This document shows, piece by piece, positions 331-2,708 of a stretch of 64,000 nucleotides of DNA (position 1 is its first letter; each line of letters opens with the position of its first letter). The position numbers were made by a program, and so were the translations under genes. The notes under the pieces were generated by a model that searched no databases, was not told where the DNA came from, and was given only the letters and a program-made list of their open reading frames with translations. Source of the DNA: Thermoanaerobaculia bacterium (GTDB taxonomy: Bacteria; Acidobacteriota; Thermoanaerobaculia; Multivoradales; JAIOJS01). The stretch is taken from contig JAUIDB010000015.1 of NCBI GenBank assembly GCA_030429235.1, positions 1-64,000 of the forward strand, in the 5' to 3' direction.

Positions 331-834
331 CTAGATGTCGCTGGGTGACGTTGCACCAGGACTCCTTCGGAAGGTACTTGTCTCCGACTGAGTGGCACCG
401 GAGGCCGGGGTCAGCCTTCCGCCATCAGGAAACCTGTCTAGACAACCAGCATCACACACCAAGTAGATGACTTCGTCATCCCTAGTCCTGCAGTTCCCAA
501 CACCTGACGGCCCGAAAACACACCGGAAGCCTTCATCAACGCTGACGAACACTTCAACCCAGCACGGGTCCCATGGGTATTCCCGTTCAGCCAGGTAACC
601 GTCGACTTCTACTGCGTTCAAGAAGAAAAAGCGCGCAAGGTCCTCGGTAGGTTGAAACCTCGAGCAGACGCCGTCGTCTGGAACTCCGTGGAGTTGGCCA
701 AGCCTCAACTCATAGTCTTCAGGCAACCTATCCCTGAATCTGACCACTGGATCGTCCGCGCCGCCGAGACCAAGAGCGACGAACAAGGAAGAGGAGACAA
801 CGAACCACCAGGCAGTCTTAGTATCAGTCCTCAA
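331..834 (-). CDS. Secreted Cys-rich small protein, candidate immunity protein
   Basis: I do not recognise a family. The 167-residue product has a clean Sec signal peptide (MRTDTKTAWWFVVSSSLFVALGLGGA) and about six cysteines in the mature part (CSRF, PCWV, RCVF, NCRT, VCDAGC), so it is probably exported and disulphide-bonded. The TTG start is chosen because GGGAGGT lies six bases upstream and the TTG overlaps the TGA stop of the RHS-amidase gene (TTGA at 834-831), implying translational coupling. Its place directly behind a peptidoglycan-amidase RHS tip, plus export to the compartment where such a toxin acts, suggests a cognate periplasmic immunity protein. Toxin-immunity pairs of this layout are well known; the specific assignment here is inference. 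A longer TTG start at 849 would put the ribosome site inside the gene. Confidence 0.7.
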   Translation of the reverse strand: MRTDTKTAWWFVVSSSLFVALGLGGADDPVVRFRDRLPEDYELRLGQLHGVPDDGVCSRFQPTEDLARFFFLNAVEVDGYLAEREYPWDPCWVEVFVSVDEGFRCVFGPSGVGNCRTRDDEVIYLVCDAGCLDRFPDGGRLTPASGATQSETSTFRRSPGATSPSDI

Positions 835-2708
835 GGTGTGACCTCCCAATCGGCTGTCTGTGCTTCGGTCGGATTCTTGTAGGAGACTTCAGGATGTCGG
901 AACACGTTTCCTTCGCCAACAGACTGGGTACGCTGCAATTGACGAACGAGCCAACTGAGTGCCTCATTCTGAGCATCCGTGGCATCATCATAGACCGCAT
1001 CAGGTCCCCAGTACGGTCCGCGCCCATTGGACGGGTCGGTAGCCACACCCACGAGTTCTATTCCAATCGAATCATCATTGGAGGGGTATCGAAGCGGGTA
1101 CTCCTTACTTGACTCGTGCCTGTGTAGTGCCGTTCGACTGGTGGCCTCCTGCGATTGAGCAGCAGCAGCAGCAGCTTCCCTGAGACGGTTCTCGGCCCCC
1201 ACAGCGAGGTCGACTGGCAATGGAGACATGGACGTGGCGTTGGTGCAAGCAGTTGCGTCCGCCAGACAGCGCGACTTTAGCTTTCCCACATGGGCCGCGG
1301 ACTGATCCAACCGTGCAGTTTGAAAGATCTGGCCTGAACGATCGATTAGAAAGTGTGCTCCCACATCGGAGGTCTGGTAGTGGTTCAAGGTCGACTGAGC
1401 GGTTGGAGCACCGGTCTGATGAACGATAAGGCCATTCACTTGGTCCATGGGCCCCTGATGCAGGTTGGTTGAAATCCGGTTCTCGATACGGGGACTAGTG
1501 GCCACCCCGTTTTGTATCACAACGGCGTTCCTTCGAGCCGCCAGAAACCTCTCTCGGACCTCCCCCTCCGCCGGCGAGGGCGAGTCGCCCTCTTCAACGA
1601 GATCCACGGCCGCAGCGTTGAGCCAACGACAAAGTCGACTCGCCTTCAGCGTCCTACCAACACACATACCGAGAGGGTCTCCGGCGTTCATGGGGCTGTT
1701 CAACCCATACTGGTAGAGGCTGGGCCCATCGACATACCCCATGGGATCAGCGGTGACAAACCTCCCCATCTCCGGGTCGTAATACCGATTCCGCGCGTAG
1801 TAGAACCCCGTCTCCTCATCCCGCCCCAAACCGTGGAAACCAAAGTGATTCCCGATGGTCGACGCCGCCACGAATCGGTCGGACGGCCGTTCGAAGACCG
1901 AGAGGCCGCTTCCGGTGGAGGTCGCGAAGGAGTGGGTAACCGCCTCTGGCAAGCCCTTGTTGTCGAGATCAACCACCGCCGTGCCGAGCTGTAGGGTGTG
2001 GCTGCCCGGCCCCAAGGGTTCGGCGGACCGAACGGTGTACGAGTCCGCGTCCAACTGCCATTCGACGGGCTGCGAGTCGAGGGTGGCCTGCGCCAGGAGC
2101 GAAGGCAACGAGGGCGGCTCTGAGAAGATGATCTCGAGCGTGCCATCGGCAGCGACGCACACTCGATCCACCCTGGGGTTGGCTGTATCCAGCACCACGA
2201 CATCGGGCCCCCATGGGATCACTTGCGAGAGGCCGGTGGCTGCTTGATGCTGGAAGGTGTCGAACAGAGTGTGAGCAGGCAGCGCGAAACTCAGGTTCGC
2301 ACCGGCCTCGGGCAGGTCTGCTGGATCGTCGATGTCGATGCGGAACACCAACCGCTTGCCAGCCTCTGGCCCACTGACCACCGGTTGCGTGACCAGCAGC
2401 GGTAACGGCTGACCCTGATGCTGCAACGAGATCGCTCCCGACTCGACGGCTCGACTGACCGGTTCGAGAAGCACCTCCTCCGACAACTCGACCCAAACCT
2501 CACCGTCGACCAGACGAAGCTGCTGAACCTCTGGCGGGGTCGAATCGACCTCGAGCGAGTGGCCACTCGAGTTCGACCAATCAGACCCTCCCTTGACGCT
2601 CCCCCACCCTCCATGCCACCATTCCTGGTAATGACCGATCGCTTCGCTTTCCCCACCTTCGCTTTTACTGCCGACAGCGGGAGCCCGATCGACGTCTAGA
2701 CCCCTCAT
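831..2708 (-). CDS. RHS core protein with C-terminal peptidoglycan amidase, probably 5'-truncated
   Basis: The N-terminal half looks like bacterial Ig-like repeats (for example VDSTPPEVQQLRLVDGEVWV). A classic RHS-associated core follows at about residues 290-345 (TGFYYARNRYYDPEMGRF, YQYGLNSPMNAGDPLG). A PGRP/Amidase_2 domain occupies about 420-620: IVHQT (His430), AHVGK, SIGIELVG and RHPEV (His605) match zinc-site and core motifs of N-acetylmuramoyl-L-alanine amidases. The product would cut stem peptides from peptidoglycan. At 625 residues it is far shorter than full RHS proteins and lacks YD-repeat shell and secretion regions. The frame stays open upstream into pheA antisense, and its first ATG (2708) has no ribosome site and lies antisense to the pheA leader. 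I infer a truncated or orphan RHS tip. GC is visibly lower than in neighbours (48-57% in three lines counted near 421 and 1021-1140). Confidence 0.75.
   Translation of the reverse strand: MRGLDVDRAPAVGSKSEGGESEAIGHYQEWWHGGWGSVKGGSDWSNSSGHSLEVDSTPPEVQQLRLVDGEVWVELSEEVLLEPVSRAVESGAISLQHQGQPLPLLVTQPVVSGPEAGKRLVFRIDIDDPADLPEAGANLSFALPAHTLFDTFQHQAATGLSQVIPWGPDVVVLDTANPRVDRVCVAADGTLEIIFSEPPSLPSLLAQATLDSQPVEWQLDADSYTVRSAEPLGPGSHTLQLGTAVVDLDNKGLPEAVTHSFATSTGSGLSVFERPSDRFVAASTIGNHFGFHGLGRDEETGFYYARNRYYDPEMGRFVTADPMGYVDGPSLYQYGLNSPMNAGDPLGMCVGRTLKASRLCRWLNAAAVDLVEEGDSPSPAEGEVRERFLAARRNAVVIQNGVATSPRIENRISTNLHQGPMDQVNGLIVHQTGAPTAQSTLNHYQTSDVGAHFLIDRSGQIFQTARLDQSAAHVGKLKSRCLADATACTNATSMSPLPVDLAVGAENRLREAAAAAAQSQEATSRTALHRHESSKEYPLRYPSNDDSIGIELVGVATDPSNGRGPYWGPDAVYDDATDAQNEALSWLVRQLQRTQSVGEGNVFRHPEVSYKNPTEAQTADWEVTP
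2631..2699 (+). CDS. pheL: pheA leader peptide (attenuator)
   Basis: A 22-codon open frame ending in TAG, with four Phe codons in eight positions: it begins MTDRFAFPTFAFT. The enterobacterial PheL leader is similarly Phe-rich. An in-frame ATG at 2613 would add MPPFLV and a fifth Phe. The ribosome site is weak at both starts. The frame ends 25 bases before a perfect terminator hairpin and 87 bases before the pheA ATG. The Phe codons lie at 2643-2666, just ahead of the presumed antiterminator arm at 2675-2681. The role, sensing charged tRNA-Phe by ribosome stalling, is inferred from this architecture. Confidence 0.7.
   Translation: MTDRFAFPTFAFTADSGSPIDV

Follow-up and report, generated by a model that had tools for sequence, protein, structure and literature searches.

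Amidase effectors paired with periplasmic immunity proteins are a known kind of system. In the Tae1-Tae4/Tai1-Tai4 pairs, the effectors are enzymes with a cysteine peptidase fold. The proteins AmpDh3 (PA0807) and PA0808 of Pseudomonas aeruginosa are a T6SS amidase and its immunity protein (PMC10281587). A different type of organization has been described for the orphan rhs-CT/rhsI modules of Salmonella, which consist of a displaced rhs fragment without a start or an export signal and a linked immunity gene (PMC3967940). These orphan modules are reported to recombine with a complete rhs gene (PMC3967940).

A pair of genes combining features of these systems was examined at one end of the window (the whole stretch of DNA analysed, 64,000 nucleotides from a Thermoanaerobaculia bacterium). 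A sequence-only reading of this DNA had proposed a working RHS toxin with a peptidoglycan amidase tip and, overlapping its stop codon, the gene for a secreted immunity protein of a possibly new family. Our analyses indicate that the RHS gene is very likely a 5′-truncated fragment and, as part of the same judgement, that the pair is an orphan (displaced) rhs-CT/immunity module, with a wall-amidase tip, an exported antidote and a toxin that is probably silent. The features of the locus are listed in Table 1.

Table 1. Features of the toxin/immunity locus and flanking DNA, in window coordinates
Feature	Position	Strand	Basis or remark
Repeat, probably the left terminus of an IS110-like element with which the contig ends	1-120	−	93% identical to G000:C41:9365-9483, same genome
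Immunity gene for a 167-aa protein with signal peptide and six Cys; start codon TTG	331-834	−	Profile similarity to an amidase-linked secreted family
TTGA overlap of toxin stop (833-831) and immunity start (834)	831-834	−	Four bases shared
Toxin ORF	831-2708	−	625 aa, stop-free open frame
Toxin tip, residues 349-625, with AmpD-fold Amidase_2 domain (422-615; H430, E551, H605, E615)	831-1664	−	Domain match, alignment, predicted structure
C-terminal end of RHS core, residues 284-348, DPLG at 344-347	1665-1859	−	TIGR03696 match and homology
Two Big_5-like Ig domains, approximately residues 53-283	1860-2550	−	Homologous sequence precedes the core end in giant RHS proteins from the same order
5′ end of the open frame, probably untranslated	2551-2708	−	Homology ends; pheA leader on opposite strand
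Phe-rich leader peptide MTDRFAFPTFAFTADSGSPIDV of pheA	2631-2699	+	Context, outside the toxin

RHS scaffold end and amidase tip

The Rhs_assc_core model TIGR03696 matched residues 284 to 348 of the toxin ORF (1.6e-19, 70.2 bits), representing just the C-terminal ∼65 residues of an RHS core. The characteristic trait of RHS polymorphic toxins, a core with a DPxG motif (here DPLG at 344) ahead of a variable tip, is present. Residues 43 to 348 exhibited 37 to 45% identity to the pre-tip region of large RHS proteins from the same order. These relatives, which have the core end in common, extend upstream into YD repeats and have unrelated tips and downstream genes. One complete relative has 6,111 amino acids and a Sec-type signal peptide at the N-terminus, and hence such scaffolds are not obviously T6SS proteins. 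The fragment in the window begins 3′ of the YD repeats, and both the full RHS shell and the N-terminal export part are absent. Composition also breaks within the ORF: GC3 was 0.81 to 0.85 in neighbouring genes, 0.75 in the RHS part, 0.58 in the tip and 0.60 in the immunity gene. This drop after the RHS part places an exchange boundary just after the core.

A match of PF01510 (Amidase_2) to residues 422 to 607 (2.5e-16; 60.7 bits, with the cut-off at 26) agreed with the proposal of an RHS core followed by a PGRP/Amidase_2 domain, and the two histidine motifs named in that proposal were detected, with H430 located within VHQT and H605 within RHPEV. The predicted structure of the amidase (pLDDT 90) had AmpD as its best match (2y2b; Z 16.4, rmsd 2.4, 153 aligned residues, 27% identity). 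In a 37-sequence alignment of the family, window protein included, there were 31 invariant columns, all of which are kept in the window amidase. The zinc ligands of Amidase_2 enzymes are two His and an Asp or Cys. Both zinc-site histidines are retained. The third zinc ligand in AmpD is Asp164, ten residues past the second His; all 37 family members have a Glu at this position (E615 in the window protein), which may act as the ligand instead.

An initial scan of genome contigs using the window protein as the sole query yielded no match. A tblastn search detected plasmid genes of Erwinia rhapontici (2e-42) that carry the annotation "peptidoglycan recognition family protein"; one adjoins an annotated Hcp. 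Scanning of GTDB with a four-sequence amidase alignment detected 80 loci, present in Erwinia, Morganella, Serratia, Burkholderia, Variovorax, Cupriavidus, Massilia, Lysobacter, Acidovorax, Nitrospirillum, Microbulbifer and others. The family spans the Proteobacteria, and its members are mostly stand-alone proteins of ∼200 amino acids that are often next to Hcp (an Hcp-like gene was present in 40/80 loci). The amidase profile, which was built with the window protein included, matched the latter at 1.0e-71. One other member (in G241) was detected among 396 genomes of the phylum, and the window amidase was the only RHS-fused one recognised among the loci found. A 27,346-aa "open frame" in another genome (G230), which contains masked N runs, was discounted.

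The secreted partner and its linkage to the amidase

The gene overlap and ribosome site described in the sequence-only reading were both observed, with GGGAGG lying 7 nt upstream of the TTG start (about positions 842 to 847) in the sequence preceding the overlap, GGGAGGTCACACC. The encoded protein has, as also described, a hydrophobic N-terminal segment consistent with a signal peptide and six cysteines (residues 57, 91, 105, 115, 127 and 131). An open frame of this length within 520 nt was obtained in 0.65% of first-order Markov shuffles. When used as a single query against Pfam, NCBIfam, the 396 genomes of the phylum, plasmids and viral contigs, the 167-aa protein produced chance matches only, and a BLASTP comparison with the partner of the G241 amidase was not significant. 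A profile was then built from the products of genes immediately 3′ of related amidases, with the 167-aa protein left out. This profile scored the 167-aa protein at 34.3 bits, while 2,000 shuffles of the mature protein reached no more than 10.3 bits; among 2,496 ORFs from the window and other loci, the protein had an E value of 2e-9. This homology to an amidase-linked family indicates that positions 331 to 834 contain a real gene. The relationship is remote (10 to 23% identity), with C57, F60 and C91 of the family signature being kept together with its C-terminal Cys pair, but not the near-invariant Gly that follows the second Cys. Massilia and Microbulbifer subgroups, with four or six Cys, have the same C-terminal Cys pair, and the spacing of the first two Cys is 34 residues in both the window and Microbulbifer proteins. 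Fold comparison of a model of the immunity protein (pLDDT 79) detected nothing significant (best Z 4.1, 4r7r), a result that does not point to a new fold.

A small secreted ORF was located at the amidase stop in 79/80 amidase loci, mostly with a 7-base overlap. Four Paracidovorax/Acidovorax loci (L086, L091, L093 and L094) have a different-looking secreted protein there that lacks the conserved Cys pattern and may represent another immunity family against this toxin. Most of the other ORFs encode a signal peptide followed by the pattern C..F.PT....FF..A......Y.PC.. Linkage was then counted from the side of the immunity family in 28 genomes, comprising 25 chosen for holding the amidase and G000 (the window genome), G241 and G352. 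These contained 92 members, 81 of which were directly or in tandem behind an amidase: 64 were ≤150 bp behind an amidase match and 17 lay farther downstream, at distances up to 3.5 kb. Among the 17, two (the window gene included) are adjacent genes in which the profile match starts inside the gene, and the others are tandem copies. No amidase was nearby for the other 11 members. Conversely, 53/55 near-complete amidases had an immunity member within 300 bp, and chance adjacency was estimated at <0.01%. Samples independent of the amidase gave small numbers that agree, with two of three immunity matches amidase-linked in the 396 genomes of the phylum and six of eight in 150 genomes from the order of Burkholderia anthina. 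In G352, an immunity-like gene with a signal peptide (L110, 1327-1734, plus strand) adjoins argH and has no amidase nearby.

This conserved linkage of both families strongly supports the proposed pairing of an amidase tip with a secreted, putatively periplasmic immunity partner, and the 81/92 figure runs counter to the outcome by which that proposal could have failed, namely homologues occurring mostly without amidases. The suggestion of a new immunity family was borne out in part. No model for the family exists in Pfam or NCBIfam, and a sequence search of the PDB gave no significant match; however, the window protein belongs, as a distant member, to a widespread secreted family located behind the same amidase family in many Proteobacteria. 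Neither a description of the family pair nor a neutralisation test of any immunity family member was found in the open-access literature; subscription papers were largely outside this search, and hence the novelty of the family pair is provisional.

Tandem copies and copies beside decayed amidases are a habit of immunity genes in T6SS loci. Amidase fragments were observed beside complete immunity genes in G398, G405, G408 and G409 (loci L035, L056, L072 and L073), together with tandem arrays in which as many as four immunity genes follow one amidase. Persistence of family immunity genes in other genomes, alone or beside decayed amidases, and the presence of a separate ribosome site for the window gene would be consistent with a purely defensive module, in which the toxin fragment is relictual and the exported protein serves as an orphan immunity against amidases of rival T6SS bacteria. 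We consider this explanation unlikely, if worth retaining, as decay of the amidase domain would be expected if only immunity were under selection and this domain is undecayed. The displaced-module reading, in which tip and antidote are both intact, is preferred.

The 5′ end of the toxin frame and the contig end

RHS homology of the toxin ORF begins only at residue 43 to 55, and the first 43 residues are missing in homologues. The ATG at 2708 has no ribosome site and is located within the antisense of the pheA leader/attenuator region (2631 to 2750). This antisense location and the start of homology indicate that the first ∼45 residues are probably non-coding. A GC-rich hairpin and T run are present directly before pheA (2631 to 2786 on the plus strand with the leader; folding z −3.4), and the leader peptide and hairpin/T run are likely to form a transcription attenuator of phenylalanine synthesis with a textbook layout. 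No sigma-70-like promoter was found for the toxin frame, no signal peptide on the 625-aa frame and no T6SS sheath gene VipB (TssC) in the genome. The view of the RHS gene as a working toxin was not upheld, there being no delivery part and no convincing start. With the junction taken as assembled, start and export signals are absent while the tip and the immunity gene are intact, as in orphan rhs-CT/immunity modules.

No parent RHS copy was found elsewhere in the genome bin. A second RHS gene in this genome (G000:C43:2-7717) is a 2,572-codon open frame cut by the contig start, and the ORF overlapping its 3′ end resembles a SUKH (SMI1/KNR4) immunity protein.

Base 1 of the window is base 1 of a 124.7-kb contig, and the immunity gene is 330 bp from this contig start. 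The contig-end repeat stops just before ATG ACC CAT GT, while the C41 copy continues into HVGIDLHHAA. The repeat has a stable predicted fold (z −3.1), and an Rfam search produced sub-threshold matches only. This repeat probably marks the left boundary of an IS110-like element, and the contig breaks there. Given the fragmented bin and the presence of this probable element at the contig end 3′ of the pair, the apparent truncation next to pheA could be an artefact of joining during assembly.

An active short RHS toxin, translated from 2708 as a 625-aa protein, exported by an unspecified route and forming an active weapon with its partner, would explain why 625 codons are open without a stop and why the active-site residues are all kept, with no sign of decay. 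The lack of a signal peptide, RHS shell and detectable promoter, the position of the ATG opposite the pheA leader without a ribosome site, and the absence of the first 43 residues from homologues make this explanation improbable relative to a displaced module with a truncated RHS gene.

Proposed explanation and described systems

An amidase with a housekeeping or lytic role, next to an unrelated gene for a secreted protein and not part of a toxin pair, would fit a fold that is that of AmpD and endolysins but is highly implausible given the fusion to an RHS core end, the reciprocal linkage of both families across many genera, the tandem arrays of the small gene and the Hcp adjacency. For the displaced module, enzyme class, export and pairing follow from homology. 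The tip is predicted to be an AmpD-fold zinc amidase that would cut the N-acetylmuramoyl-L-alanine bond of peptidoglycan in a target cell's periplasm, and the overlapping gene most likely encodes an exported, disulfide-containing antidote that would bind the tip in the periplasm. The toxin/immunity pair was probably exchanged onto the C-terminus of a giant, Sec-exported RHS scaffold, of which only the end would later have been retained. Due to the absence of a start, an export signal and the RHS shell, the toxin is probably silent as it stands, unless recombined with a complete rhs gene. The immunity gene, which has a ribosome site of its own, is possibly expressed and may still shield the cell from the same amidase when other cells deliver it.

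These findings put a name to a widespread pair in which an AmpD-fold amidase, labelled "peptidoglycan recognition family protein" by annotation pipelines, is accompanied by a secreted Cys-bearing partner labelled "hypothetical protein", and the family profile detects the immunity partners, whether single or tandem. One toxin cassette is carried by Hcp-linked genes and, in a genome of another phylum with no detected T6SS, by a Sec-type RHS scaffold. We suggest tentatively, with doubt slightly outweighing belief, that this is an undescribed wall-amidase/secreted-immunity family exchanged across phyla between two kinds of carrier, the T6SS (as Hcp cargo) and giant RHS proteins outside the T6SS, with Glu as third zinc ligand where AmpD has Asp.

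The Hcp-linked pair WP_159338404/WP_159338403 on plasmid pERA54 of Erwinia rhapontici has an amidase of the same subfamily (about 38 to 48% identity), the same kind of gene overlap and a partner of the same secreted Cys-bearing family as the window pair. Erwinia-type amidases are, however, stand-alone, whereas the window amidase is fused to an RHS core end, and the window genome differs from the T6SS setting of the Hcp-linked pairs in having no detected sheath gene. AmpDh3 and the window tip have the Amidase_2 fold in common (4bxj, Z 11.7), although this match is weaker than that to AmpD; the AmpDh3/PA0808 and window pairs are likened by this fold and by the pairing of a wall toxin with an immunity protein. 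The Tae/Tai pairs have the same logic of amidase effector and periplasmic immunity, but the window tip, unlike Tae1-Tae4, is a predicted zinc amidase of AmpD fold. The anatomy of the window pair, a displaced rhs fragment and a linked immunity gene, is that of the Salmonella orphan modules, from which it differs in not being downstream of a main rhs gene, in having a wall amidase as the tip and in deriving from a Sec-type giant RHS scaffold.
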